DNA from: a virus
Direction: 5' to 3' (one strand)
IMG/VR virus record: IMGVR_UViG_3300023184_003454
Span: 1 to 46,328 of that record
Length of the DNA stretch: 46,328 nucleotides
Position numbers and translations under genes: made by a program. The notes below the pieces were generated by a model. That model searched no databases, was not told where the DNA came from, and was given only the letters and a program-made list of their open reading frames with translations. Positions 182-42,400 of this stretch are shown here, piece after piece. The stretch's first letter is position 1. Each line of letters opens with the position of its first letter.

Positions 182-547
182 ATGGAAAAAGAATTTATCC
201 CTTACGAACAAGCATTAGAACTTAAAGAATTAGGATTTGATGAACCTTGTTTTGGTTTATATCATAATGATAAAACATTTTATCTTACTCAATGTAAATC
301 ACACGAACAGTATCATGGACAAATATGTACAGCACCAACATTTTCTCAGTGCTTTAGATTCTTTAGAGAGAAATATGGATTGTACTCTTGGATAACTATG
401 GAACTTGGAGCAACATTGACTTTTTGTTGGATAGTAACAGGAGAAAATAAGGGCACTGAACATAAAGCATTTTTTAAATCTTACGAAGAAGCAGAACTTG
501 CTTGTCTTAAAAAATTAATAGAAATAGTTAAAAACAATAACAAATGA
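182..547 (+). CDS. conserved hypothetical phage protein (121 aa)
   Basis: The product is soluble, with no signal peptide or membrane segment. It opens with EFIPYEQALELKELGF and contains FREKYGLYSW in the middle, then ends with a Lys-rich helix. I recognise this general pattern from many Bacteroidota phage and prophage proteins of unknown role; no function can be assigned. The stop codon is a TGA that overlaps the ATG of the next gene (ATGA at 544-547), which implies translational coupling. The start at 182 follows the upstream stop by 2 nt and has the A-rich context typical of this genome. Confidence 0.75.
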   Translation: MEKEFIPYEQALELKELGFDEPCFGLYHNDKTFYLTQCKSHEQYHGQICTAPTFSQCFRFFREKYGLYSWITMELGATLTFCWIVTGENKGTEHKAFFKSYEEAELACLKKLIEIVKNNNK

Positions 548-915
548 AAACAATAACAATTGATGGAGTAGAGTACAACTTAACTCCTATTGAAAAACAA
601 TCTAATCAAATTATCTTAAAGCAAACACTCAAGTTTGAAGTCTACCCTAAAGATTTAGGTCAACACAATTGGGAAGATGCTAAGAAAGTATGTGAAAATT
701 TAGGAGATGGATGGAGACTTCCTACAAGGGAGGAGTTACATTTGATGTGGCTAAATAAAGATAGTATTGGAGGTTTTGTTGCTGCCTACTATTGGAGTTC
801 AAGTGAGAGCGGTAACCTCAGCGCATGGTCTCAGTACTTCAACAATGGCTATCAGGACTACGACCTCAAGAACGCCACTTACTATGTTCGAGCGGTTCGG
901 GATGTATCAATTTAA
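544..915 (+). CDS. C-type-lectin-fold (DUF1566/FGE-like) protein; likely diversity-generating retroelement target
   Basis: The 123-aa product has an N-terminal strand region and then the hallmarks of the CLec/FGE-type fold used by retroelement variable proteins: WEDAKKVCENLGDGWRLPT at about residues 40-58, YYWSSSES at about 81-88, W at 95, and the closing YYVRAVRDV at about 112-120. Such proteins present a randomised ligand-binding face, often on tails or on the cell surface. The last 110-120 bases are strikingly different from the rest of the gene: GC-rich and full of NNC codons (AGC, AAC, CTC, GAC, TAC, GCC), where neighbours prefer A/T endings. That is the footprint of adenine-mutagenised retrohoming from an AAC-rich template repeat. 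No reverse transcriptase or template repeat lies in this window, so they would have to be elsewhere in the genome. Its start overlaps the upstream stop (ATGA). Confidence 0.75.
   Translation: MKTITIDGVEYNLTPIEKQSNQIILKQTLKFEVYPKDLGQHNWEDAKKVCENLGDGWRLPTREELHLMWLNKDSIGGFVAAYYWSSSESGNLSAWSQYFNNGYQDYDLKNATYYVRAVRDVSI
784..903 (+). repeat. putative DGR variable repeat (VR)
   Basis: This is the 3' segment of the CLec-like gene. It is about half GC, against well under a third around it, and ends in CGAGCGGTTCGG, a GC-rich block in the place where an initiation-of-mutagenic-homing site normally sits. Third positions are mostly C in exactly the codons predicted to face the ligand. I infer a VR from composition and position. 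The matching template repeat is not in the window, so the boundaries are approximate. Confidence 0.6.
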
Positions 916-3121: not shown

Positions 3122-3275
3122 AAAAATACCTGTCCTCTTTAAATTCCTTTAACTCAGGGAAACCTCAGCACATAATGGTGGTGGCAATCCTGATCCAAGC
3201 TTAAAAATAAGAAGGAGCAGAGACTATCTAGAAATAGAGTACATGTAATTAGTAACTACATGGAAACGGGGAATA

Positions 3276-3307
3276 TTTGGATAATTCATATTTTTTACTT
3301 ATCTTTT
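3276..3307 (+). promoter_or_regulatory. Bacteroidota-type promoter inside the intron
   Basis: TTTG at 3276-3279, a 20-nt spacer, then TATCTTTT at 3300-3307. The GIY-YIG start at 3329 is 21 nt downstream. This promoter lies after the in-frame ATG at 3260, so it supports 3329 as the real start. The endonuclease could thus be expressed independently of the helicase transcript. Confidence 0.5.
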
Positions 3308-3328
3308 TATTGTAAACTATACAAAGAT

Positions 3329-4210
3329 ATGGAAGATAATAATTATAAACTTTATTCATTAAATGATGAAACAGGTGTTAGATATATAGGAATAACTAAA
3401 CAAAAGTTATCTTATAGATTATCAGGACATATTTCATCTTGTAAACAAGCATTTAAAAATAAAAAATTTAGAAATCATAGACATTGTTGGATTAAATCTT
3501 TATTAGATAAAAATTTAAAACCAGAAATTTATTTAATTAATGAATTTAAAACAATTGAAGAACTTAAAAAAGCTGAAATAGAAACTATTAAATTGTATGA
3601 TAATTTAGTAAATAGTACAGCTGGTGGAGACGGTCTTAAAAATTATAAATTTACTAAAGAAAGATTGGAAGAAGTAAGATTTAAGGTTGATCAATATGAT
3701 TTAAAAGGTAATTTACTAAATACATTTAATAGTTTATCTGAAGCATCTTTAATTGTTACAGGAACTGAAAAAAATAATAGTAAAATATCACAAGTTACAA
3801 GAGGAATTTATGGAAGAAGAACTGCTTTTGGTTATGTATGGAGAATACATGGTGAACCATTTAATAAATATCCAGTTATTCCTCAAATTAATATTACTGA
3901 AGCTCAAAAAAAAGCTTTAAGTAAAAGACAACTTGAAAATAACATTATGAAAGGAAAAAGAGGTTTACAATGTAAAAATAGTAAACCTATTATTATAACA
4001 CATAATGATATTATTATTAATATTTGTGAATCAGTAGCTGAATCTTTTACAATTCTTCCTTTTTCAAAATCTTTTATTAATAAAATGCTTAAAACAAGTA
4101 TAAAAGTTAATAATTATAAATTATATTATGCAAATAAAGATATAGTCCAATCCTTACAGAAATGTAAGAGTCTAACATTAAGTACTTTTGTTGGACAAAT
4201 ATATAAATAA
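3329..4210 (+). CDS. intron-encoded GIY-YIG homing endonuclease
   Basis: The product is about 293 aa from ATG 3329; an in-frame ATG at 3260 exists but lies upstream of the promoter and within the ribozyme core. The GIY-YIG motif is the variant K-L-Y (7-9) ... Y-I-G (19-21), with the catalytic Arg at about 30 (LSYRLSGH). A NUMOD-like segment VDQYDLKGNLLNTFNSLSEA lies in the middle, followed by an IYGRRTAFGYVWRIH block typical of nuclease-associated DNA-binding modules. It should cut intronless alleles of the helicase gene and drive homing of the host intron. The final 24 or so codons overlap the P7-P9 part of the ribozyme, and the stop ends 5 nt before the 3' splice site. Confidence 0.8.
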   Translation: MEDNNYKLYSLNDETGVRYIGITKQKLSYRLSGHISSCKQAFKNKKFRNHRHCWIKSLLDKNLKPEIYLINEFKTIEELKKAEIETIKLYDNLVNSTAGGDGLKNYKFTKERLEEVRFKVDQYDLKGNLLNTFNSLSEASLIVTGTEKNNSKISQVTRGIYGRRTAFGYVWRIHGEPFNKYPVIPQINITEAQKKALSKRQLENNIMKGKRGLQCKNSKPIIITHNDIIINICESVAESFTILPFSKSFINKMLKTSIKVNNYKLYYANKDIVQSLQKCKSLTLSTFVGQIYK

Positions 4211-7893: not shown

Positions 7894-8432
7894 ATGACTT
7901 ATAAGTTTAATATAGGTGATCAAGTTAAAATTATATATTCAGGATTAGGATGTTCTCCAGAAACTTTACATGAAGTTGTAACTATAACTGAACAAGGTGT
8001 GTATGCTAATAAACCTGGATACAAAATAGATAATATAACAATACAAACTAACACCAAAGATGGTAGTTTTGGTGGTATGATAGGTGAAGAAAGTTTTGAA
8101 TTAGTACAAAGTAATAAAATAACAAAAATAAATAAAATGGCTATTAATAAACCAAAAAAAATTACAAAATCAAAAGTTGCAGAAACAAGAATTATTGATA
8201 GTTCTCTTATCAATAAAGATGAAGTATTTAGAATGTTAGCATTAGCAGAAGCTACACAACTACCTCTGTTATTAGTGGGAAAACCTGGTACAGGTAAGAC
8301 AAAAACTGTTATAGAATATTCTAAAGCATGGTTACAAAAAAGTGGTAGTGCAGTTACTAACCAAGATTTTATGAATAAGCTTTATATTCTAGAAACTGAT
8401 GAAGGTACTAAATCATCAGAAATTAAGGGGAT
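7894..8432 (+). CDS. MoxR-type AAA+ ATPase, exon 1 (with fused KOW/SH3-like N-terminus)
   Basis: This encodes residues 1-179 plus part of codon 180 of a 466-aa protein. Residues 1-72 (FNIGDQVKIIY ... GGMIGEESFELV) resemble a stand-alone KOW/SH3-like phage protein. An internal ATG at 8137 in ideal context (AAATAAAATGG) begins the ATPase proper. Walker A is VGKPGTGKT at 128-136. The exon ends AAGGGGAT, perfectly complementary to the guide GTCCCCTT at 9245-9252 with the terminal U.G. Without splicing the frame reads NKKKLYII and stops. The next gene encodes a VWA protein, the classic MoxR partner. MoxR/VWA pairs remodel or activate protein complexes and insert metals; the phage substrate is unknown. 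Confidence 0.85.
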
Positions 8433-9498
8433 TAACAAAAAAAAGTTGTATATTATATAGTAGGGTTTAAAAAACTACAATATAAAATATGAAAAACATT
8501 ATTTCTACAGAAAACATTAAAAAATCAGGTGTTTATAAAATTATAAACACAATTACAGAAGATTATTATATAGGCTCATCAGTTAATCTATATCATAGAA
8601 TTTGTCAACATTATCATAAACTTAGAAAAAATATTCATGGAAATAGTAGACTACAAAATAGTTATAATAAATATGGAGAAAATAATTTTCAAGTTTTAAT
8701 AGTAAGTTATGAAGATTCTAAAAATGTAAGAAAAGTTGAATATGATCTTATAGAAAAAGAAAAACCTGCTTATAATTTGGTTAACATATTTAATGAATAT
8801 TATTTTGATGAGAAAGTAAGACTAAAAATGTCAAATAGTCAAAAACTTTTACAAAAAACAGGTTTAAATAATCATGAGAGCAAACCAGTAGAATGCTATG
8901 ATTTAGACGGTAATTATGTAAAAACTTTTAATTCTATGAGTTTAGCTTTAAAAGAATTAGGTAAAAATAATTCTTGCGGAGCACAACAAATAGGTAAATG
9001 TATAAGAAAAGAAAGAATGTCAGCTTATGGACTACAATGGAAACTTGTAGATGATCCAATTAAGATAACACCGCTTTCTTTTAAAGGTAAGTTAAATGCT
9101 ATTGATGGTAAAAAAATTATTACTTTAGCAGATGGAACAACCTTTACTGACTCTAATTCTTTAGTTAAATATTTTAATAAACAAATTGTATCATTATGTA
9201 ATGGTGGTGAAGTAGAAATATGTTTAAATATAAAAGTTCGGGAAGTCCCCTTTAAATCCTGTGAATTGCTGGAAAACCCAGAGATGGATAATCAGCAGCC
9301 AAGCTCTACAGAAATGTAGTGAAGGTTCAACGACTAGTACATGGAATCTGACCACATAATGGTGAAGATGGTAAAGTACCACGAGCTCAGGACAATTATA
9401 AATTAATTTATAATTGATGATATAGTCTGATCTGCATGTATAATCTTATAAAAAGATGCAGAACTAAGAGATAAAGAACTCTTAGGATAACAAAAATG
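8433..9498 (+). ncRNA. group I intron in the AAA+ ATPase gene
   Basis: The 1066-nt intron has its open reading frame in the P1 loop: the guide sequence GTCCCCTT (9245-9252) comes after the endonuclease coding region, far from the 5' splice site. The core has AATCAGCAGCC at 9290-9300, GTTCAACGACTA at 9325-9336 (P7 5' strand, then P3) and GATGATATAGTC at 9416-9427 (P7 3' strand). The last intron base is G9498, and the joined exons read ATT-AAG-GGG-ATG-CCC-GAC (I-K-G-M-P-D). A hairpin in P6, CTACA-gaaa-TGTAG, supplies the TAG stop of the endonuclease. Confidence 0.88.
8489..9319 (+). CDS. intron-encoded GIY-YIG homing endonuclease
   Basis: This 276-aa nuclease has GVY at residues 14-16, YIG at 27-29, Arg at 37 (YHRICQHYHKL) and the LQNSYNKYGENNF block typical of the GIY-YIG core. 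It is followed by a NUMOD-type segment, PVECYDLDGNYVKTFNSMSL. It should promote homing of the intron into intronless ATPase genes. The C-terminal 25-30 residues (from VREVPFKS onward) are encoded by the ribozyme guide and P4-P6 region, so RNA structure and protein share sequence. A -7-like TATATTAT at 8449 precedes it, but I find no good -33 box, unlike the other endonuclease genes. Confidence 0.85.
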   Translation: MKNIISTENIKKSGVYKIINTITEDYYIGSSVNLYHRICQHYHKLRKNIHGNSRLQNSYNKYGENNFQVLIVSYEDSKNVRKVEYDLIEKEKPAYNLVNIFNEYYFDEKVRLKMSNSQKLLQKTGLNNHESKPVECYDLDGNYVKTFNSMSLALKELGKNNSCGAQQIGKCIRKERMSAYGLQWKLVDDPIKITPLSFKGKLNAIDGKKIITLADGTTFTDSNSLVKYFNKQIVSLCNGGEVEICLNIKVREVPFKSCELLENPEMDNQQPSSTEM

Positions 9499-10360
9499 GC
9501 CCGACTTAGAAAAATTATTTACAGAAAATAAATATGAAATTGTAGCTCCTGTTAGTCAAGCAGATATAGTTGTAGTTAATGAGGTGGATAAAGCTAGTAG
9601 TAATATCCGTAACTCAATGTTGGGTGTTATGAATGAGAAATTTTTATTTAATGGTAAATATAAAATTCCTTGTAAATGGAAATTATTTGTAGCCACTTGT
9701 AATGAAATTCCTAAAGATGAAGTTAATAGTCCATTCTGGGATAGATTTATTCTGAAAATGAATGTATCTAGAGTTAGTGCAGGTGAGCTATCTAAATATT
9801 ATTCAGGAGGTTGTAAAAACTATTCTGAAAAAATTGAATTAGGAGTTCCTAATAAAACAGAAATGGATAGTTTAGTTATTCCAGCTAGTAAACTTGAGAA
9901 ATTCTTAGAAGTGGGTTACACTCATCTTTCAGATAGAACTTTAACTTTTGTACCTACATTGGCTAGAGCTGTAAGTTTTATTTGGAATATCAGTATAGAT
10001 AAAGCTTTAGTTAAAGTGGCATCTATTATGATTAATAATGCAGCAGCATCTTCTCTTCAAGATAGATTGTACACTCAAGAAATTAAGAATGTTCTTAATA
10101 GAATTGAGCAATTACAAAGTTATAATAATGAATCTTCTCTTAACCAAGCCTTAACAGAAATTGAAAGTTTAATTTCTGGATATGCAGCACAAGGTAAGAT
10201 TAATCAACTTGAAGTGGATGAAATAGAAACTACTCTATCTTATGTATTAGATTCTCATCCTTGTCATAATCCATCCTCTGATACTGAAGATGCAGTGTTA
10301 AAGATGATAGAAAAAGAAGAAGAAGCAACATCTATTGCATTTGAAGAATCTCCTTTCTAA
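9499..10360 (+). CDS. MoxR-type AAA+ ATPase, exon 2
   Basis: This completes the ATPase from Met180 (AT|G). It encodes the Walker B region ADIVVVNEVDKAS (the usual DE is NE here), sensor 1 LFVATCNEIP, and the arginine-finger region NSPFWDRFILKM, then the C-terminal lid with SDRTLTFVPTLARAVSFIW. The first in-frame ATG, at 9584, lies inside the AAA+ core, so this is not an independent gene. Replacement of the Walker B Asp by Asn is visible (VVVNEVD, about 204-210) and may slow ATP hydrolysis. A weak hairpin follows before the VWA gene. Confidence 0.85.
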
Positions 10361-16584: not shown

Positions 16585-17400
16585 ATGAAAAAACAAGAAG
16601 AAATATCATTAAAATTATCTAAAGATGAAAATTTTTATAAACTAACTAATAAAGAATTAGCAATTAAGTATAATTGTTCTAAAGCTACTATTGATAGAGC
16701 TATCAGATTATCAAAACTTAAAAAAGATAAATCAATAATAGGAAGTTTAAAAAAATATTCTGAAAAGAAAAAACCAGAGTTACATATTAGTAAAGAATTA
16801 GATGAAATAATTACAGGATCTATGTTAGGAGATGGATATATAAAAGATTATATTAAACATACTTCTGGACCAGAAAGAAGAAAAAATAGAAATTCTTCTT
16901 TAGTTTTAAAACATGGTTATAAACAAGAGGAGTATATAATGTATAAAAGAAATATAATTAATAATCATGTTCTTTCTTACATAAGAAAACAAGATATAAC
17001 AGATATTAGATTTAAAAATCCTTTATATACTCAATATATTGTAGAAACTAGTCAAAATTCTGCGTTTAATAAACATAGAGATTTATGGTATGTTAATGGA
17101 AAAAAAATTATTCCGTTTAATAAACTAATATTTACTCCTTTAATACTTGCTATATGGTTTCAAGATGATGGTTTTAAAACTTCTAGTAGTTATATATTAA
17201 GTACTAATGGTTTTAATAAAAATGAAGTAGAAAAACTTTCTAATTTATTAAACTATACTTATGGTTTATCTACTTATATTAGACATCAATCTAATAATCA
17301 ATGGATTATTATTATTCCAGCAAAAGACATAAGTAATTTTAATGATATTATTCTTCCTTACATACATGAAAGCATGTTATACAAAATAATTTTTAAATAA
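16585..17400 (+). CDS. intron-encoded LAGLIDADG homing endonuclease
   Basis: This 271-aa nuclease has two LAGLIDADG-type motifs, ITGSMLGDG at residues 76-84 and LAIWFQDDG at about 187-195, whose acidic residues form the two metal sites of a monomeric enzyme. An N-terminal helix-turn-helix (NKELAIKYNCSKATIDRAIR, about 22-41) adds DNA binding, as in related terminase- or NUMOD-associated enzymes. It should cleave intronless dnaB-like genes and promote intron homing. It sits upstream of the guide sequence inside the P1 loop and has its own promoter-like element. Confidence 0.88.
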   Translation: MKKQEEISLKLSKDENFYKLTNKELAIKYNCSKATIDRAIRLSKLKKDKSIIGSLKKYSEKKKPELHISKELDEIITGSMLGDGYIKDYIKHTSGPERRKNRNSSLVLKHGYKQEEYIMYKRNIINNHVLSYIRKQDITDIRFKNPLYTQYIVETSQNSAFNKHRDLWYVNGKKIIPFNKLIFTPLILAIWFQDDGFKTSSSYILSTNGFNKNEVEKLSNLLNYTYGLSTYIRHQSNNQWIIIIPAKDISNFNDIILPYIHESMLYKIIFK

Positions 17401-24404: not shown

Positions 24405-24437
24405 ATGAGAACACATTGGGTGATAAATTATTTGTGA
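24405..24437 (+). pseudogene. orphan 5' end of polB, truncated by the HNH insertion
   Basis: This ten-codon frame begins ATG-AGA-ACA-CAT-TGG (M-R-T-H-W-V) and stops at TGA. The same R-T-H-W-V opens the conserved part of PolB at 25145, and the DNA matches there as well (CATTGGGT and flanks). I read it as the original start of polB, cut off when the HNH element inserted. The element's promoter begins at 24431, immediately after the duplicated block. Confidence 0.6.
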
Positions 24438-24461
24438 TTATAAAAATAATTACTATCTTTA
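24431..24461 (+). promoter_or_regulatory. Bacteroidota-type promoter for the HNH endonuclease
   Basis: TTTG at 24431-24434, a 19-nt spacer, then TATCTTTA at 24454-24461. The ATG of the nuclease is only 5 nt further on, so the transcript would be leaderless or nearly so. The -7 element TATCTTT matches that of the GIY-YIG gene at 3329. Confidence 0.5.
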
Positions 24462-24466
24462 TAGTC

Positions 24467-24934
24467 ATGAAAACATGTACAAAATGCAAAATTGCTCAGT
24501 CTAATGAATGTTTTAGGACTGACCGAAGTAGAAAAGATGGTTTACATTCACATTGTAAAATTTGTTCTAATAAAAGTATGAGTGAATATTATGCAAAGAA
24601 TCCTGATAAATGCAGAGCAATTGCAACTAAAGCTTATACTAAAAATAAACATAAACATGTATTGAGAAGAAAAGTGTATTCATGGAATAAAACCTATGGT
24701 ATTGACATTACTCATGATGTATATTTAAAAATGTTAGAAGAACAAGAACATAAATGTGCCATTTGTTCAACTCTTGATACAGATCTTGAAAAGTTATTAT
24801 CTGTTGACCATTGTCATACTACAGGTAAAGTAAGAGGTTTGTTATGTAACAACTGTAATCTTGCTCTGGGTAATTTCAAAGATAAAATAGAAAATTTAGA
24901 AAAAGCAATTAATTATTTAAAACAAAATATATGA
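24467..24934 (+). CDS. HNH / endonuclease-VII-type homing nuclease
   Basis: The product is 155 aa from ATG 24467; an in-frame ATG at 24416 precedes the promoter and is rejected. The N-terminal zinc motif is CTKCKIAQ ... HCKICSNK, and the C-terminal catalytic domain is of the recombination-endonuclease-VII/HNH type: HKCAICSTL, VDHCHTTGKVRGLLCNNCN, ending LGNFKDKIENLEKAINYL. Its position at the very 5' end of polB, with a private promoter and duplicated polB codons upstream, marks it as a mobile free-standing nuclease. No group I core is found around it. The TGA stop overlaps the next ATG. Confidence 0.8.
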   Translation: MKTCTKCKIAQSNECFRTDRSRKDGLHSHCKICSNKSMSEYYAKNPDKCRAIATKAYTKNKHKHVLRRKVYSWNKTYGIDITHDVYLKMLEEQEHKCAICSTLDTDLEKLLSVDHCHTTGKVRGLLCNNCNLALGNFKDKIENLEKAINYLKQNI

Positions 24935-28393: not shown

Positions 28394-28555
28394 ATGCCAC
28401 AAGCAACAATAACAATAAAAGACTTACCTGCTCTTAAACAAGCATATAAAAAAGCAGTAGAAGAAAACAAAGATTATTTTGTGTACAGAGATAGTGAACT
28501 AATCACTTCTTATGCAAAGTATTTAATTGAATTTTTAGAAATGAAACAATGTTAG
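28394..28555 (+). CDS. hypothetical small protein (53 aa)
   Basis: ATG 28394 follows the kinase stop by 1 nt. The product is MPQATITIKDLPALKQAYKK then a charged helix ending LIEFLEMKQC. A likely soluble helical protein without recognised motif. Its stop overlaps the next gene by 7 nt, supporting a real coupled gene. Confidence 0.55.
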   Translation: MPQATITIKDLPALKQAYKKAVEENKDYFVYRDSELITSYAKYLIEFLEMKQC

Positions 28556-28752
28556 AATTTAATAATCCAATTCCTGTAGTGGTTGAAGGTAACAAAGATG
28601 GCTATGCACTATATGTCACTAACTCAGGTATGCTTGAGAATGATGTATGGTGTGTAGTACATTGTGATGGAGGGATTGTTAGACATTACACAACTGATCA
28701 GATAAGGATATTCCATAATGCAACTTTTAAAATAACTAAAGACAATGGTTAA
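28549..28752 (+). CDS. conserved small phage protein (67 aa)
   Basis: A compact beta-rich protein with NPIPVVVEGNKDGYALYVTN and NDVWCVVHCDGGIVRHYTTD. I recognise this pattern from short phage proteins of unknown function. It is coupled by overlap to genes on both sides. Confidence 0.6.
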   Translation: MLEFNNPIPVVVEGNKDGYALYVTNSGMLENDVWCVVHCDGGIVRHYTTDQIRIFHNATFKITKDNG

Positions 28753-29912: not shown

Positions 29913-32900
29913 TTAATCTAATTTCTTTTGATAATAAATAACTTGATTAATATTACTTAAAACTGGAAGTACTTTTGTTATTTTTAAAGCTGTTCTTTCT
30001 CCATCATATTCTAATTCACCATCTTCTTTTTCAATTTGCATTCCATAATAAGTTATTGCTTTACCAGTTTCTCCCCAGTTTCTTATAGTTCTTACAATTG
30101 GAAATATTTCTTTTTGTAATTCACTAGCTGAACCTATATTAGAATAATATGTTAAATCACGGTTTAAATCATGAAGTTGTCTTAATACTAAAAGATTATA
30201 CATTTTTTTATATCTATCATCATCTGGAGCCATAGCTTTTAATAACATATATGCTAAGTATAGTGCTACAATTACTTTTAATTCTGATACAGCTTTTTTA
30301 AAATTGGATAATTGCATTTCATCTGTTAATCCTGTAATTTGTCTATTTAAAACAGCATCCAACATCATTTTTAAAATTCCAGCTTTTTTTTCTAATAATA
30401 TTTTTCCAAAAGTTCTGTAATAACCTTCTTCATATCTTCCTAATTGATCATCTTTATGTTTAGGATCAAATCTTACACCCACTGTTTCTGGAAGCCATGA
30501 TTTAAATAATATTAAAAGTTTACCTACAGCATTATCTTTAACTTTTATATATGTGTTTTTACCAGAAAGTCCGTGTAGTTTATTAGCTAATTGTTTATAT
30601 TTTAATAATTTTTTATTATAATATTCATCAAATGTTAAATTGTCATTTGCAGCACTATCCCAAGCTCCATATTCTTTTTCATTATATTCTCCATTTTCTA
30701 ATAAAGCATCATAAAAAGATATTTCTTTACCAGTAGATGTTTTAATTTTATCATGATATGCACAAGCAACAGTCATTTCAGCTTTAAAATGATAATCACC
30801 AGAAGCTAATAAAGTATATGCTTTTGGTAAAATTTCATTAACTCTATCTATAATTGTTTTCTTATCTATAAGTTCTTTTATATAAGCTCCAAATTCTCCT
30901 TCTGCAATACCTGCATCAATCAGCATTCTAAGTATTTTTTTAGTATTTTTTGTTTCAATTTTACCTGCTGAAAAGTAATTTTTGCTACAATCTATTATTA
31001 TTCTATTAGCTTTAGCTAATTCTTTTTTGTTAAAATCACGTTCTCCTGCTGCATGATTATAATTATTAATTTTTCCAACTAATAAATTTCTTACAGCTGC
31101 AAATGGTTTTAAAGCTAATGCTCCAAGTCTAGTTTGAGTTATTAAACTTTCAATAACAGACGTTGTAGATAAACTTCTACCACCAAGTTTCATATATTCA
31201 CCTTTTAATATATAAACTTGATTTTCTTTTTTTTCACGGTCTTCATCACTTAATGTATCATTTTCTAATTCTTCATTTAATTTTCTAATACCATCTTCTA
31301 ATTTTTTTGCTTTATCTGCTTTTTCAGATTTCCAACCACCAAAAGAAACTAATTCTTTCCAATCATAAAATTTTTTACTACTTACAGGTAAAGTATCTTC
31401 AGGAACAATACCATAAAAACTAGCAGCAATTGTAGAAGCAGCTAATGATTTTATTCTTTTTGCATCTTCATATTGTGCTTCACGTTCACCTGTTTTTTTA
31501 TTTACCTTATAAGATCCTTTTGTACTTTGCAATACATCATTTATAGTATCAATTTCTGATTTAACCATACTTCTATGTTTATACATAGTAGCCATATCAC
31601 TAAACATTTTAGCAATTACAACAAGATTTTTTGATCTATCTTTTACATCTACATTTTCTTTAAGAAATCTTGTTTTGATAGTCATTCTTTGTTTATTAGT
31701 AACAGGGTTAACTTCAATTTTATTATCAAAATTATATGAAGTTAATGCTTTTAAAAACCAATCACCAACACCATTAATAGATTCTTTTAATCCTGTAAAA
31801 CCATACTCTTTAGCCAATCTATCAGCTGTTACTGGTAAAAAATTTGAACCTAAAGTATCACTTTCTTCTTCAGGAAGATAGCCAATTTGATCTTTCATAA
31901 AGTTCATATACCAAGAGTAGAATTCTTGAAGTTTTGGATCTTGACTAATTTTTATAAAATTTTCATCATAAAAATCAGTGTTTTTACCGTCAACTATTTT
32001 AAGAGGTATTAAATATAAATATTTAGTTGCACCATAAGCAGTGAATATTTGTGTACCAAAGAATTTTTGATCATAATATTTTAGTGGATTATTTATATCA
32101 TCATATTCTTCAACTTTGCTTTTTACATAATCATCTATTGTTTTACCAGTAGGAATTACAGAAGGATCATTAATAGCATTTTGTTCCACTCTATACTTAT
32201 AAGTATCTTTATTCCATAAATAACTATCATATTTTCTTTTAGATTCAGCAATCATGTTATTAATTTCTGATTCATTAAAACCCATTGCTTTAATTCTATC
32301 TATTTCACGTTGTCTTTGTACATCTGAATATTTAGCATTATCTAAAAAATATAATGCATTAAAAGTTACTGTATATTTATCTTTCCATTTATTAAATTTT
32401 TCATATGCTGCTTTAATTTTAGCTTTATCTTCTCCAGCATTTAATAAATCTTTTGTTTTATTTTTATTCACTTCTCTAAATGCATCCCAAAATTTTTGAT
32501 TATATCTTGTAACGACACCTAATGATTCTTCACCTTTTTTATTTTTTTGTGATTTTATAAATAAATCCCAACCCATTCTTTTAAAAGTAGAATTATTTTT
32601 AATTAGTTCAAATTTTTCATCAATCTCAGTATGATTTTTATTATGTTCTTTATTAATAATTAAATTAACTTCATTTATTATATAAGAAAGTTTGTTTGTT
32701 ATTGGTATCCCAGCAGTAGATAATTCTCTTAAATATTCTGTAAGTATACTTGTATCTACAATCTGTAATAAATCTATTCTTTCTACTTTTACACCTTTTG
32801 TAGAATTTTCTATTAGAGTTAAAGCAACTTTTCTACACTCTTCTGAATATTGTAAATATGTAGATTTTATTTTATCTAATCTTTCTTTTGGAGAAGCTAT

Positions 32901-33434
32901 CTCTATTTTATTTCCTTCTAAATCTTGTATAATTTCTTTTTCATCACTTACATTTTCTGTTGTTTCAATACCCAATAAGTTATTTATACTACTCCATGTA
33001 TCTACAATATCTAATATAATACGAAAATCACGTATATTTAAGTTATTACTTTTAAATGCAGCATCAACTATTTTAATATCATTTTCAGCTGTAGTAAGTA
33101 TTAAATTAAGTTTTTTACTTGGAGTTACAAGTTTAAGATTATTGATAGCTTCATTAGCTTGTTCTATAATTTGATCATACTTATAAATATCTTTAATTTT
33201 TTCTTCTTTTGATGCATTACTATTTTTAATAGTTTTTTTCATATTAATTGCATCACTTTTTCTTTGTTGCAATACTGTTACAGACTTGCTAATTATATCA
33301 GATGTTTTAGGTTTTGTAGTTATAGACCTAAGCTCCATCATAGACATATTGTTTAATGCATTGTCTCTTTTTAATATATCTAAAAGTTCTTCTTTAGAAT
33401 ATTCTTCTCCTTTGTATACGTATTTGCAAGCCAT
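29913..33434 (-). CDS. large virion-associated protein (1173 aa)
   Basis: A mostly helical, Lys/Asn/Asp/Glu-rich protein beginning MACKYVYKGEEYSKEELLDI, with no recognisable enzyme motif. One moderately hydrophobic segment lies near the C-terminus (IVALYLAYMLLKAMA), followed by RQLHDLNRDLTYYS. The gene starts 2 nt after the stop of the giant polymerase gene, so both are in one operon. In crAss-like phages the genes next to the virion RNA polymerase encode other large proteins packed in the tail or capsid and ejected with DNA. By that analogy I infer an internal cargo or ejection protein. I have not seen a conserved domain. Confidence 0.65.
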   Translation of the reverse strand: MACKYVYKGEEYSKEELLDILKRDNALNNMSMMELRSITTKPKTSDIISKSVTVLQQRKSDAINMKKTIKNSNASKEEKIKDIYKYDQIIEQANEAINNLKLVTPSKKLNLILTTAENDIKIVDAAFKSNNLNIRDFRIILDIVDTWSSINNLLGIETTENVSDEKEIIQDLEGNKIEIASPKERLDKIKSTYLQYSEECRKVALTLIENSTKGVKVERIDLLQIVDTSILTEYLRELSTAGIPITNKLSYIINEVNLIINKEHNKNHTEIDEKFELIKNNSTFKRMGWDLFIKSQKNKKGEESLGVVTRYNQKFWDAFREVNKNKTKDLLNAGEDKAKIKAAYEKFNKWKDKYTVTFNALYFLDNAKYSDVQRQREIDRIKAMGFNESEINNMIAESKRKYDSYLWNKDTYKYRVEQNAINDPSVIPTGKTIDDYVKSKVEEYDDINNPLKYYDQKFFGTQIFTAYGATKYLYLIPLKIVDGKNTDFYDENFIKISQDPKLQEFYSWYMNFMKDQIGYLPEEESDTLGSNFLPVTADRLAKEYGFTGLKESINGVGDWFLKALTSYNFDNKIEVNPVTNKQRMTIKTRFLKENVDVKDRSKNLVVIAKMFSDMATMYKHRSMVKSEIDTINDVLQSTKGSYKVNKKTGEREAQYEDAKRIKSLAASTIAASFYGIVPEDTLPVSSKKFYDWKELVSFGGWKSEKADKAKKLEDGIRKLNEELENDTLSDEDREKKENQVYILKGEYMKLGGRSLSTTSVIESLITQTRLGALALKPFAAVRNLLVGKINNYNHAAGERDFNKKELAKANRIIIDCSKNYFSAGKIETKNTKKILRMLIDAGIAEGEFGAYIKELIDKKTIIDRVNEILPKAYTLLASGDYHFKAEMTVACAYHDKIKTSTGKEISFYDALLENGEYNEKEYGAWDSAANDNLTFDEYYNKKLLKYKQLANKLHGLSGKNTYIKVKDNAVGKLLILFKSWLPETVGVRFDPKHKDDQLGRYEEGYYRTFGKILLEKKAGILKMMLDAVLNRQITGLTDEMQLSNFKKAVSELKVIVALYLAYMLLKAMAPDDDRYKKMYNLLVLRQLHDLNRDLTYYSNIGSASELQKEIFPIVRTIRNWGETGKAITYYGMQIEKEDGELEYDGERTALKITKVLPVLSNINQVIYYQKKLD

Positions 33435-33436
33435 AA

Positions 33437-36400
33437 TTATTTACATTTAGTTTTTATATCAAGATAGTTAATTATTTTATCAAATTCTGATTCAACTATA
33501 CCATCAAGAAATGATTTTGTTTTTATTGATTTTAATGTTTGATCTGTTTGTGCATCATTTTGATTTCTTGATTCTACAATTCCAATTACATTTTTAATAC
33601 CTTCTTTTAATACTGAATCTTCTTTTACAGAGATTCCTAAAGCTTTAAGAATATTTACAAATATATCAATAAATCTTTCCATTAAAGTTTTTTCACCTGA
33701 ATAAGATGTATTATTCATAAAATCTCTAAAATTTTCATCAGACATTAACATACTTACAAAATCATGTATATTAGTTAAACCATAGTAGAATGATTTATCT
33801 TTTGCAGATAAGAATCCTCCTTCTTTATTTACTTGAGCAATTGCATTTTTTAAATTATCAGAATGTGCAGGATCATTTAAAATCTTTTCTTGTGTAGATT
33901 TGAACAGATTTTCTAATGAAATAACCCATTTACGTTGATCAGGAGTTAATTTAGATTTATCCATTTCAATAATATTAGCTGTAACATGATGAAATAATTC
34001 ATGAATTATAACATCATATAGTGCATTAATATTATCAGTATCAGATTCAAAAGCCAACTTTGGATTAATTCTTATAGTTTGTTCATATCTATTATATGAA
34101 CCTGGATCTGTCATTGTTTCATCAACAATAATTTTTAGATTACCTACACCACCAGTTTTACCAACTAAGTCTAATACTTGTTTATAAAAAGGTGATATGT
34201 TAGATTTATATAAACTATTTAATATTGTTTTAGCATCAGCATTTTTATCTTTTCCAAATATATCTGTAATTAAATCATTTTGATCTGATTGCATTATTTG
34301 ACTAAATAAATCTCCAATAAAATCAATAGGTTCATTTTCTATTTCATTTTCAGCCTCTTCAATATCACTTTTTATTTCAGATGCACTAGTCATTCTTTGT
34401 GCTTGATTATCATCTGTAATAGCTCCTAAAAATACTTCTTGATTATTTACTATATCTGTACCAGCTGGTTTTATAATAATAAGACTTCCACTAGTTCTTG
34501 TGAGTGCAACATACATAGAACTAAATATATCATCTTGATTTACATTAGATGCTGCATTCTTTTTAATATTATAATCACCAACAATTACATTTTTAATACT
34601 GTTTCCTTGTGCTGTATGTGATGATCCTATATAAGATGGCACGTAAGGAGGTGTATAAAATTCATTTAGTTGATCTAATTCTGGTTTAAAAATATTTAAA
34701 TAATCTCCATACTTTAAATCAAATGTAGAAATAACTTCACCAGTTTTTGTATTTTTAATTTGAATACCTTCCATTGACTTTGTCTTAGTATTATATTTTC
34801 CATATTCAAATTCTCCTGTTTTTGCATCTTTAATCCCAACAACTTCTATTCCTAAAACTTTATGTATATGTCTAATTCTATCTTGTCTATTGTATACAAT
34901 TGTATGTTCAATTTCAACAATCATGTTTTTAGGTAAAAATTTTAATAATTCACCACTTACATAATTTGCTATATTTTCAGATTTAGTTTCAATATCTAAT
35001 ACTTTAAATCTTGCACCAGGTTTAACAGCACCTCTATTTATTTTATATGCACCATTTTTAATTGTGTATTTTTGTTTATCTAATAATTTTTTAATTTTAT
35101 CATCAGAAGGAATATATTCATATTCACTTGTAGCAATTTCCACTTTACCGTTAAAAATTATATAATCTTGGTTTGCATATAATCTATAACTTGGTGATGA
35201 AAAATCTAATCCAAGTTTTTTAAAATAATCATTTCTAATTTTTTTAGAAAGATTTTTTGTATTTCCATGTTCTACATTATTATAATGAACCCAAAACATA
35301 CCATAAGGATTATTATTTTGAATTAAATAATTAGTGTAATCATCTATAACTCCATCTTCATTTTTAACTACAAGTATGTTTTCTGAAGATTTATTAGTAA
35401 GTTTATCATATTTATCAAATGATAATTTTTTAACTGGTCTATTGTTTTTTAGATTTTCTATATTTTCTACAATTTCATTACCAACCTGATCATATATTTT
35501 ATGTAATATTTTATTATCAGATCTCATTACTTGGATAAGTTCTTTAGTTTTAGATTTATCAAGTAATAATGTTGATGATATTAAACCTTTATTTACATCT
35601 TTAGATTGTTGTTCACCAATAGGTCCAAGTTGTCTATAATCACCCATAAATATAAATATAGGCAGTCTACTAATTAATCCATTTTTAAGATCTTGTTTAA
35701 TTCTTAATAAAATATCTCCAAAATCTTTTTGACCAATCATTGAACTTTCATCAACAATTATAATATCTGGTTGACCCATTGCAGGTTTAAATTGAGTTGA
35801 TTTAATATAATCTATTTCATTTGAAAGAGATAACACACCATCAATCATTTTATTTCTTCTAGTTTGAGAAGCAATAGTATTAACTACACCATCATTTGCT
35901 ATTTCACTATCTAATCCTAATGATTCTTGTAAAACAGTTGCTGCTGTATGTGTAGGAGTTAAATACATTACACTAGGTTGTGCATATTTATTTTTACCTT
36001 CTATTGCTGCAATAATTGCTTTAATTACTGTTGTTTTACCAACACCTCCTCTACCAGCTAATCCAATCATATTATTCCACATATCCATTGGAATCAATCC
36101 ATTAAATTTTTGAGTTAATGGATCTGTGAATGCAACTGTTTTTTCTAAATCAGATTCTGTAATTATTTTTTTATTAGCTAATAAATTTTCAACTTTACCT
36201 TTAATAAAATCAAATGCTTCTTGTTGACCATCATTCATTAAAGATATAGTGTCTTCTGATTCCATAATAACATTGTTATTTGGATTAGAACCTTCAGGAA
36301 CATTTATTCTTTTTTCTTTTTTAATAGGTTTTTCTTGAACAGGTGGTAATTCTTCTTCAGTTTCTCCAAAAATATCTTCTTCAGATGTTGCTATAAGCTG

Positions 36401-39400
36401 TTGAGGTTTGATTTCTGGAGTTTCAATTTGAGATTTATCATAGTATAATGACATTACTCTTTGAATAACATCTTTAGATTGTATAACATCTCCAAAACTT
36501 GTTTTTTGTAATGATTTTATAGATCCTTCAAAATCAACAAAATATTTAGGTTGATTTTGAATACTAGTAAGAGTTACCACTCTATCAGGATGTAAATTAA
36601 CTTCATGTGTTAATATAACTTTAGATAATAAATTAGTATCTGAAACAGGTTTACCTTTTTCACCTTGAGCTTGGAAATAAACATTATATCCATCTTCCAT
36701 AGTTCCTTCAATAATATAGTTTTTACCACCATATTCTACTACAGTTGATTTAACTTCTGGTTGTTCTATTGGTTCTTCTATTTCTTTTATTAAATTAAAT
36801 TGAACTGTAGTTGCTGTGCTATATCTATTACCAGATGAATCTTCAGAACCAATAAATATATCATTATTTATAGTACCATAAATAGCAATTTTTTTATCAT
36901 TAATTCCTTTTAAAATAATATAATCTCTTTCATAAATTTTATTACCATGTTTTACATCTTTTGTTGATATACTTACAACAGTATATGTACTACCTTTATA
37001 AAGACCATAATCTGATGTTATTTGTGAACCTACAGTAATAACATCATTTTTTTGAGTTTGTTGTGTTACTTCTTTTTTAATCTCTTGTGTAGGTTCTGTT
37101 GTTTTTATAGAAAGTAGTTTACTAAATCCTTCTTCAAACACCATATTATCAGGAATAGGAAATGCACTAAACATATTAGCCATATCCTGATCTGTATAAC
37201 CATTAAGATTTTTCTTACCATCTACACTGTATGCTACTACAAATTCTTTATCAGGATTTTGTAAAGCAACATCATATAGCTCTTTTATGTTAGTTTGAAT
37301 TTGTTCTGATGTTAAACTTTTTTCTCCAGCTTTTTCATATTTAATACCTGTTTCTTTTTCTACAAATCCTGCTGTAAGATTTTTTGTAACTAATGCATAT
37401 GTTTGATTTCTTAATCCTCTTCCTATAAACTGCACTGCACCAAACTTATCTTTAGCTTGTTTAGCAGCACCAGCTCCATGTCTTCCTTGTGGATTAGAAC
37501 CAAATACAAATATTTGGTTAGGTTTTAATGATTCTATTTTACCTTGATATGTTTTTACAGGTTCTGTTGGTTCTTCTGCACTTTTTTGAATATTAGTAGA
37601 TGGTTGTGTAGATTTAAATGTTTTCTCATATACATCTCTAATTGCTTGTAAAGATTTATCTATTACTTCTTGTGTAGATAAGCTTCTACTTCCAATACCA
37701 GCAAAGTTTTTAGTAAGTGTTGGAGGTTCTGTTGGAACAAAGTTTTTTACTTTATAATCATAAGTATACCACCCTTCTTTAGTACCATCAAATACATAAA
37801 CAGGTTTGCCTTCATTGATAGCCATTTGAACAGCATAACCTGTACCACCTTTAACAATAGGAATAGCAGCTATTCTTGTTTCACCTGCTTTATCAGATGC
37901 ATTTTCACCAGGTTGTTTTATAGTACCCAATGCATAAATTGCATCAGCATTTTTAACTTGCATCCAGTTTCTAATGATATATGCACTTCTTACTGATTTA
38001 TTTCCTGCATCTTCAAACATCATTCTAAAAGCTTGTGTAGCTTTTTTTGCACCTTCATCATAATCTTCTTGTTCTATATAAGTAGGTTTAATTCCTGCTG
38101 CTTGTAATTTTTTAGAATCTACATCTTTACTTCCTTTTGCAGGTTGTCCTTTTGTATCAATATATTCTAATGGTTCTCTATAATGTTTATGTTTAAATAC
38201 ACCAAATTCTCTACCAATTTGATCCCATTCAGCATCAGATAAAGCAGCACCACCTGAATGATTAGTATAATCAGCAGGATTAGATGTACCTTTTTGTTCA
38301 GATGTTTTAGTCGTAGATTGATTTAATATATCATTTCCAGCATCTTGTTCATTCTCATCTCTACTAACATTATTCATTTTTATAGATGAAACTAAATTTG
38401 GATTATTAAAATCAAATTCAGAAATGTTTTTAAATCCTAATATTTCTATTCTTTCATATGTTGCATCACCAAGTTCTGTTACAATAGAAGATGTACGTTT
38501 ATATAAATAAGAAATATCTTCACCACGTACACCTGGAATATCACTTACAACTTGATCTTTAATTAAAAGATATTTTGGATATTTAAAATCAATTCCTGCT
38601 GGTATATTAACTAAAGAAGATTCTTTAATACTTTTTAATTCATTTTCTGTTAATGGAATTTTAAGTGATTTTATAATACTTTTATATTTAGCAGTATCAG
38701 GAAAATCTCCTATTTTAAAAGTAAATGTAGTTACATCTTTTAATCTTTGAGATTTAACAATTTTAGTAAATACTTTTTTAAATGGATTATTATAAGTACC
38801 GTCTACAGCATTAGTGGTTGTAAATGAAAATTGTTTACTAAATACTTCAGAATAATTTTGAACAATTTGATCAATTAATATAGCTTTTGATCCAGAAGTT
38901 GTTATATGTTTGTTAAACATATTTTGGAAATCAGCCATTGCTTTTTTATAATCAACATCACTCATATAATAACCAACAGGTATATATCTTCCTAAATATC
39001 CTGCATCACCAGTAAGATGTGGATATAAAGCAAAATCTTTTGCTAGTTGTTTAATATCATTATTCTCATCTAATGCTAAATTATAAAATCCTAAACTAAC
39101 TTCCTTTTCATCTACATCAGTTCCAAAAGGTGCTTTAAATGAAATAGTGTATGTATCACTCTTATAGTCTTTTTCTACTTCTATATTTTTTAAAAATCCA
39201 TTTTTAGAATATTTAGAATCTTTTTTAAGTTCAAGAACTCTATATCCAATTGATGATTCACCATTAATTAATTTATTTCTTTCTTCAATGGAATTTTTAA
39301 ATAATTCAAATGAAGAATTTGTTTTCATATAAGAAACAATTGAATCAAAAACTGTAGAATAAAATGTTTCATATTTATCTTTAGATAAATTAAATTTATC

Positions 39401-42400
39401 TAATCCCATAAAATTAAGAATATTGTCTACAATAGATTCTAATTCTTCACCAGAACTTATTGGAAATAATGATTTATATAAATCTTGTGCAAATAATAAA
39501 GAGTTTTTAATATTAGATCCAATTTCACCAACAGGTTCTGCTAATTGTATATCTCCATTATCTAACTTTGTTATTTCACCTGCAATATTTTCAAGACCAG
39601 AAAAGTTTGATGAAAACTGAAGCTTGTTAAGTTGATTTAATCTTTGTTTAGTTGAAAATACATTAGCCCCAATTCCTTTTGTATAAGGATATATTGCACC
39701 TAATATTGTCATCAATTCTCTACCTAAATCTTCTAGTCTTATATATGTATCAATTGAATTATATTGTGTATTATAATAATTCAACATCATATCATTTACT
39801 GAATCATATTTAAAATCTTTTGCAATTTGCTCTAATGTTTCTTTACTTGCTTTTTGCATTACAGCTTTTCCTATAATCCATGATTCAGATAAAGATTCAG
39901 CATCTATTACATCATTTCTTGTTTTATCTTCAAAATATGATTGAGCAGTTGAACCTACAGGAAGATAACCTTCATTATCTATCTTTTTAATTATTCCATT
40001 TTGAAGTTCTTTTGCAGATGTTAAAATTGCATCAGATTCATATTGTCCAAAAGAATCTTGTTTTTGTTCAATCAATTTAAATAATTCAAAAATAGCTGGT
40101 TGTGATGTTAAATCCATCATTATTTCAATTGGAGCAGAATCACCATTTGAATCACTTAACATTGCTAACACTCCTACAGAAGACATAGCTTTATCACTCC
40201 AATTAAATTCTCTTAAGAATTGATTTTTAGCATTATCCACTGATTCAGTAAACATAATGTTTAAGTTATCAGATATACTTCTTTCTTCAATTTTTCCTGG
40301 TTCATATAAAAATGATTTAGATTTACCAAGCTTACCAATAAATTCAAGGTTAATTGCTTTACCATTTTTAGAAAGTTTTATTTGCAATGGATTCGGAACA
40401 CCATCAAAAGATAAATTAATAATTTTATCTTGAAAATCTGCTTGTGCAGATATTAATGTTGCAAATATACTAACCCCAGTTTTACCAGATCTATTATCAA
40501 TATATCTATTTATTGATGTAGTAAAATCAAGTGGAAGATTTACTTTAACATCTTCATCTAATTTATATTTTTTTAATTGTTCATTTCTAATATCTACTTT
40601 ACTTTTGACTTCAGGTAAATCAACAGAATTTGTTATTTTAGAAAAAGCAGCTGGGTTCATTAACACTTCCCAATGTATATCTCTATATAATTGTTTAAGT
40701 TGATCTTCACTAAACTTATTTACATCTTCTAATGAATTTAAATCATATGTAACTTGTTCAATTGATGCTGGTTTTTCAATTTTAAATTTAGGAACCTCTG
40801 CATCACCATATTTTTCTTTAACTGCTTGAGATAAATATGTATTAAAGTTTTTAAACATTCCTTTTTTATCTGCTTTTTCTCCAGCAGCTTCAGCAATCTT
40901 TTTTGCAGAATTTACAAGTTCATCATATTCTTCTTGATTTGCACCAAGCTTTTCAGTTGTACTTTTTTCATTATATTTAAATTTACTAAAATAAGCATAA
41001 AGTTTATCAACGTCAAAGTCAGATCCCATTTGACCAGTTATACCATCAGGAACCACCATGGAATTTTCCATATATGATGGTAAAAATCCCACCACTTCAA
41101 TAGGAAGAGTTGATGGATGAGATTGATTTGGAATACGTGTTCCAATAAGTTGAAACATTTTTTCATCAAAAGTAGATGTATCTAAAATCTTGCGACCATA
41201 TTTATCTTCTTTAATGTAATTAGCTAAGTTAATTAAATTGCCATCTTCATCTCTTAAATATTGTGATACAATAACTTGTGCAGCTTTTGTTTTACCATCA
41301 ACTTGTCTCATGTATTTAAGTGTAGCACCATCTTCAGAAAATTGTTTAGCATGTTTATCAAGCCATATAATATCTGATTTAACACCTTTACTTATTTTAC
41401 TAAATGTAAATTTAGCACCAACACCACTAACTTGAATAAATGATGATCCATCCACTTTAAGCATTACATTCTTATTAATAAGACTATTAATAAGACTTTG
41501 GAATTTAGTAAGTTTCCATAATCCTTCTAATGGTATTTCAAATTGATTTGTTTTAGGATTAATTTTTAATGAGTTTAAATCATTTTCACTATATGATCCA
41601 GTAGTATCATTTACAATTACATCTTTTAAAAGTGCATATAATTTTCTATGATCTCTATTTAAATTATCACCTAATTTTTCTTTAAGTTTTGCAGTTTCAA
41701 TATCAAATAATCTAGATCTTACAGCTTCTTTAAGTGTTTTACCAGTAGCTCCAGAAACATCTTTCATATTTCCAAACTGAAAATCATCAACTCCAAGCAA
41801 TCCATCAAATAGTGTACGGTTCATTTGACTAACTGTACGTATTTTATCTTTTTGATCTGGTATTTCTTGTTGATTTCTTAAACCATCTCTACTTAAAAAT
41901 TGTTTTGATGATTCAAAGTCTTCAGATGTAGGTTCAATAAAATTATTATTTTCATCAAATAGTGTTAAAGATTTAGTTGGTCTGCCAATTTTCTTACCTG
42001 AACCAAAATTAATAGACCTTACATTATTTTTTTCCATCCATATTCTAAGCTTATCTCTTTCACTTCCAGCTTCATGTTGAGGAATTAAAGGATATCTAGA
42101 TGATTTTATATAATCAATTCTATTAAGACCACTTTCTACATCACCAACTGCTACAGAATTAACATGTACAGGTTTTATAGGTGAAAATACAATGCCAAGT
42201 TCTTCAGAAGTAAGTGTATAATATCCACCTGGACCAGCATCTTTAATTTTTTTATAAATAGAATACCAAGTATTAATATCCATTTTACCTTCACTCATTA
42301 AATAATCAATATGCTCTTGCATTATTACTAATTCTTGAGCATCTGTTGTTTCACTTTTATTTAATTTACTACCATCAGTATTTTTTATTTCTTTTTTAAT

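Follow-up and report, generated by a model that had tools for sequence, protein, structure and literature searches.

A small lectin gene near the left end of a viral DNA record closes with some 40 codons whose composition departs from that of everything around them, and the question is what wrote them. The stretch analyzed here, which we call the window, is the whole record of 46,328 bases. An original prediction, made from the letters of the window, read this gene end as the variable repeat (VR) of a diversity-generating retroelement (DGR), written by a reverse transcriptase (RT) from a template repeat (TR) that lay left of the window or was supplied in trans. The following features are needed for the argument.

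182..547, + strand: upstream neighbor of the lectin gene, 121 aa, a possible passenger (41-44% identity to the neighbors in G002, G001, and G008)
544..915, + strand: DGR-type target gene for a stand-alone C-type lectin (Lcl_C/DUF1566-type), 123 aa (ORF, Pfam, AlphaFold2 [AF2], viral relatives)
544..633, + strand: N-terminal leader (MKTITIDGVEYNLTPI...) of the lectin (alignment, neighborhood listing; AF2 beta-hairpin at residues 3-12)
778..894, + strand: VR, codons 79-117, with variation of NNC/NNT codons restricted to their first two positions (GC peak, excess of third-position C, codon-position test, differences from the template)
883..900, + strand: near-invariant, GC-rich 3′ end of the VR (TATGTTCGAGCGGTTCGG) (homologue alignment; control DGRs)

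A GC-rich repeat at the 3′ end of a C-type lectin gene

The compositional break on which the prediction was built is real. GC content reaches 0.508 at 781-900, the highest value for any 120-bp interval in all 46,328 bases, against a mean of 0.27 for the record, and C occupies the third position in 44% of codons 79-117 (778-894), compared with 3.8% in the 7,668 codons of the other genes in the window. Among the pyrimidine-ending codons of this stretch, 17 of 29 end in C when 7.6% would be expected (binomial p 2e-12), and the excess ends at about codon 117. Eight of 10 phage homologues share the first 14 bases of 883..900 without change, and the TR and VR of control DGRs have identical 3′ ends; judging by its position, 883..900 may correspond to an initiation site of the IMH type. 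We looked for a conserved hairpin downstream of the VR among the relatives and found none.

The lectin fold was likewise recovered, both by profile and by predicted structure. The product of 544-915 matched Pfam Lcl_C in a profile search (E 1.7e-12), and the best match of its AF2 model (mean pLDDT 87.8) among solved structures in Foldseek was the C-terminal domain of Legionella Lcl (8q4e, E 1.2e-8). The protein has, as DGR targets do, a C-type-lectin fold with a variable stretch at its C-terminus. In the relatives L009 and L010, the alignment and the neighborhood listing showed the leader to be swapped for a different N-terminal region.

Variation is centered on adenines and spares silent sites

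A scan of IMG/VR viral contigs returned 13 relatives of the lectin, and the proteins of L001-L010 align with that of the window at 63-80% identity. The lectin-bearing contigs have an overall GC content of 0.27-0.43 and, judged by the genes they share, form about four groups. We compared ten homologues from these approximately four phage groups by codon position. In codons 17-78, pairwise differences at positions 1/2/3 were.146/.064/.283, which shows purifying selection, and in codons 82-113 the order was reversed, at.373/.316/.137. Across codons 82-117, the first two positions of AAY codons held nearly all of the changes, so that TAC, CTC, GAC, AGC, GCC, and AAC interchange with no change of the third base, which is C or, at fixed sites, T. 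Where an alignment column had at least three states, A was one of them in 31/31 cases and the column was at codon position 1 or 2 in 28/31. The variation is thus centered on adenines and confined to codons ~79-117.

Leave-one-out prediction of the template from the ten homologues placed 220/245 mismatches at a predicted template A, and L007 alone contributed 13 of the other 25, so the concentration at template adenines that the prediction had proposed to look for in an alignment was found. Because the upstream region is A-rich DNA and makes a weak control for this procedure, we relied on the codon-position test and on silent sites. Silent-site diversity was.10 in the VR and.26 upstream (Mann-Whitney p.0018 without L007 and p.021 with it). 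This homogenization indicates that near-identical templates served to rewrite the VRs once the gene copies had diverged. Third positions differ by only 2.6% between the backbones of the window and its relative G003, yet over 36 codons their VRs show 14 first-position and 7 second-position differences; gene replacement may contribute to this, as the whole lectin genes differ too. On the other hand, the VRs of L001 and L002 are identical though they come from different samples, so rewriting is not constant. The pattern is that of a DGR target, with variation at template adenines and mainly at positions 1-2 of AAY codons, where the template is an inferred one and none was found in the same genome.

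The inferred template matches real templates next to RT genes

We inferred a phage template of 117 bases, spanning 784-900, from the VRs of the RT-less phages alone; the interval of 784-903 proposed earlier for a near-copy agrees with this span. The window VR differs from the inferred template at 19 A sites and 1 other site. The corresponding A/non-A differences were 20/1 in L004, 24/2 in L009, 21/2 in L010, 22/3 in L001, 11/3 in L006, 24/5 in L005, 16/6 in L003, and 23/6 in L008, with L007 as an outlier (19/14); non-A mismatches thus numbered only 1-3 in six of the ten VRs. The template comes from the very sequences that it explains, a circularity that is lessened by the leave-one-out prediction and by two independent matches to real TRs.

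The first match came from an exact search of 2.9 million viral contigs with a 29-base core of the template, which returned one VR (L006) together with L030 and L031. Each of the latter two proved to be a true TR with an RT downstream of it (RVT_1 E 7e-18 and 2e-17), and within the repeat the VRs paired with these TRs deviate at A alone. TRs were present in the control records G014 and G015, and the RT search also detected the control RTs. For the second match, we inferred another template from Flavobacteriales genomes that have related chromosomal lectin genes and no RT, and compared it with 399 Flavobacteriales genomes. It was 96-98% identical to sequences in G457, G361, and G414 and 89% identical to one in G365, each closely followed by an RT gene, which in G457 is broken into two ORFs; in G457, G361, and G414 a VR lies ~700-800 bases from the TR. 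Since both template predictions match real TRs next to RTs, and the variation is adenine-centered, the assignment of the repeat to the DGR type is strongly supported, and we take it as settled, for practical purposes, that the window VR originated from a DGR, although our searches did not recover its own template.

RT and template are missing from the phage records

No RVT_1 match was obtained in the window, in the 13 other lectin-bearing records (including those of 161-180 kb), or in 43 relatives of the window's backbone of up to 131 kb. A direct scan for a near-copy with mismatches at A yielded no template in the window or in G001-G010, that is, in 11 of the 14 lectin-bearing records (G011-G013 were not scanned whole). 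The suggestion that RT and template lie left of the window is therefore not borne out. Most lectin-bearing records are fragments, and the 46-kb record of the window is classed as a possible fragment. However, G009 (89 kb) carries the same exact 127 bases at both ends, which suggests that it is a complete 89-kb genome, although its database entry records no end repeat. What distinguishes the locus from a complete DGR is that both the RT and a near-identical TR are missing from the records examined, among which that of the window is itself a fragment.

Nor was a donor found elsewhere. The exact template core was absent from ~85,000 bacterial and archaeal species genomes, and the full inferred template had no match in phage or plasmid records. 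Searches for a donor TR in 19 bacterial genomes with lectin relatives and in 395 Bacteroidia genomes gave relatives only, as did searches of the viral contigs with exact 3′-end, 5′-end, and core patterns of the template. Seven matches to the 3′-end pattern (L022-L025 and L027-L029) were rejected as unrelated sequence. A DNA-level search for the lectin gene in annotated phage records returned nothing.

The lectin gene is an accessory gene outside the tail module

Among the phages with the lectin, G003 is close to that of the window (44 shared ORFs, mean identity of ~90%), and G009 and G010 are distant relatives. G001/G002, G005, G004/G007, G006, and G008 have little in common with the window beyond the lectin and sometimes its neighbor, and among the 43 records related to the window's DNA polymerase backbone, just 1 has even a weak lectin match. 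This patchy distribution indicates an accessory gene that moves between phages. The upstream gene 182..547, which has a homologue in the same position, immediately before the lectin gene, in G002/G001 and G008, matched phrog_25117 (E 3e-8), and only PHROG families with no assigned function were hit. Small accessory genes, such as those of the 'GFDEPCFGYY' and 'MKNIH...YIT' families, surround the lectin gene in every record; in G008 it adjoins an apparent sigma-factor gene. Genes for a helicase, a DnaB-like helicase, RecT, an exonuclease, and a DNA polymerase follow further on in the window.

In none of the lectin-bearing records did the neighborhood listing show a recognizable tail module around the lectin gene. 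A tail-receptor function is thus unsupported, and a receptor-binding role for the lectin is doubtful. The 123-aa lectin is probably a small nonstructural protein, more likely a diversified binding protein acting inside the host or at the host surface. Its diversified face might bind a varying intracellular or surface ligand, e.g., a component of host defense or a receptor.

Two further observations concern small genes of these phages. The ~67-aa protein encoded at 28549-28752 of the window is 98% identical to the product of the gene directly after the lectin in G010 (8075-8503) and 86% identical to a protein in G009 (84619-84855), genomes whose shared genes average ~45% identity, which suggests that small genes may have been transferred recently between the window phage, G009, and G010. 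The phage contig L012 has two related lectin genes in tandem, at 8001-8357 and ~9250-9590, with the same fold signature and no clear NNC pattern.

Origin of the variable repeat

As for mechanism and ALTERNATIVES, we favor, with a probability of about 0.6, the view that the gene is an orphan DGR target and that a host-type DGR, resembling those of Flavobacteriales, rewrites its VR in trans. An AAY-rich template RNA would be reverse-transcribed with errors at adenines, and the resulting cDNA would replace the last ~40 codons of the lectin gene. The gene would travel as an accessory between otherwise mostly unrelated phages, and during infection either the host cell, with a Flavobacteriales-type DGR or a close relative of one, or a co-resident element would supply the RT and template that rewrite its VR. 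Supply in trans, one of the two sources proposed originally, is thus the favored, if unproven, option given the lack of an RT in the phage records examined, since the donor TR was not found in the ~85,000 species genomes or in the phage and plasmid records. The Bacteroides phages named in that proposal should read phages of Bacteroidota, among which Flavobacteriales-type hosts seem most likely. There is about an even chance that the mostly unrelated phages, lacking any retroelement themselves, carry the nonstructural lectin as a 'landing pad' on which the infected bacterium's RT and template carry out hypermutation, so that the phages would in effect borrow a protein-diversifying machinery from their host.

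The same lack of RT and TR would also follow if an ancestral phage or bacterium had possessed the complete DGR that wrote the VR and both components had later been lost, the RT in several lineages, leaving frozen variants to spread among phages. Epsilon crAss-like phages provide documented cases in which the RT is lost or fragmented (PMC11054128), the lectin gene clearly moves horizontally, and L001 and L002 share one VR. However, frozen variants should be as diverse as the upstream region at silent sites, which is not what we saw in these mostly unrelated phages (.10 versus.26), and six of the ten VRs have kept within 1-3 non-A mismatches of the template. We consider such a relic unlikely, albeit the most serious of the competing explanations. 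An RT and template of the phage's own, encoded elsewhere in its genome and missed in fragmentary records, would suit a 46-kb possible fragment, and DGRs can occur in crAss-like phages (PMC7290462, PMC12386605). Against this, RVT_1 was missing from 13/13 other lectin-bearing records and the template from the window and the ten others scanned; the RT-less records include G009, with its 127-bp terminal repeat, and those of 161-180 kb, and 0/43 backbone relatives had an RT, all of which makes this explanation improbable.

Diversifying selection could plausibly act on C-type lectin surfaces, and selection with recombination on the surface of a horizontally mobile gene, recently acquired from a GC-richer donor, could be proposed with no retroelement at all. 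This would have to produce constant silent sites, variation limited to the first two positions of AAY codons, and A in 31/31 highly variable columns. Selection alone does not predict that the inferred template core should exactly equal true TRs next to RTs, and we give this explanation very little weight.

Comparison with known systems

DGRs with C-type-lectin targets, of the BPP-1 Mtd type and of the phage clades described previously (PMC8144416), likewise have the VR at the 3′ end of the lectin gene, AAY variation at positions 1-2, and a GC-rich invariant 3′ end. Unlike them, the phage records here lack RT and TR, and the 123-aa target lies outside the tail module. The chromosomal Lcl_C DGRs of Flavobacteriales (G457, G361, G414, G365, and G258) are closer; their proteins are 47-58% identical to the phage lectin, and the nearest real templates are 86-87% identical to the phage-inferred one. 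They differ in having RT and TR together, and in three of five the VR too, and in fixed template bases (TACGGAG versus TAGTGAG; GCGTGG versus GCA/GCCTGG), so none of these five is the donor.

A VR apart from its RT is not new in itself. Targets served by a DGR RT elsewhere in the same genome are known in Thiohalocapsa PB-PSB1 (PMC10907252), and second, distal VRs are known in gut prophages (PMC12629997), although in both RT and target share one genome, whereas here the implied donor would be outside the phage genome. The epsilon crAss-like phages (PMC11054128) likewise have a DGR-type lectin target with no working RT. Their target is the receptor-binding protein of a recognizable DGR cassette, in contrast to the window lectin, which has no cassette remnant that we could find, is mobile between phage groups, and has silent sites that indicate later rewriting. 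The largest DGR survey takes the RT as its starting point and, by its own account, would overlook remote targets (PMC8144416); a hypermutated gene whose genome has no RT is therefore invisible to it. We found no phage target diversified by the DGR of another genome in the searchable literature, an absence that is no proof of novelty.

Orphan DGR targets can thus be recognized from codon-position statistics alone, and their template can be predicted accurately enough to locate its real relatives. If the VR is indeed rewritten in trans, a host diversification system would act across genomes on infecting phages, and DGRs would be part of phage-host conflict in a manner that we have not found described.

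Other observations in the window and in bacterial relatives

The window contains homing-endonuclease-like genes at 1361-2164, 3260-4210, 8489-9319, 16585-17400, and 24416-24934, a set that comprises two GIY-YIG proteins, a NUMOD1 protein, a LAGLIDADG_2 protein, and an endonuclease VII. The inserts at 8489-9319 and 16585-17400 split the ATPase gene and the DnaB-like gene; in G003, a single ORF matches both ATPase pieces and another matches both DnaB pieces. Rfam gave no match in the window, intron families included. Two giant reverse-strand ORFs lie at 33437-45151 (3904 aa) and 29913-33434 (1173 aa), the latter weakly matching a putative RNA-polymerase subunit from the crAss-like phage cr128_1.

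Lectin VR-like sequences of the same family were also seen in 15 Bacteroidota genomes, mostly Flavobacteriales, that have no RVT_1 match genome-wide (G060, G062, G063, G066, G067, G121, G141, G158, G208, G339, G357, G363, G410, G447, and G726). Orphan VRs may be common in bacteria too, with MAG incompleteness as a confounder. In G797 (contig C19, 228140-228578; L239 and L242), four template-like or VR-like copies stand upstream of an RT gene and on the same strand, spaced 354-369 bases apart in an unusual tandem arrangement.
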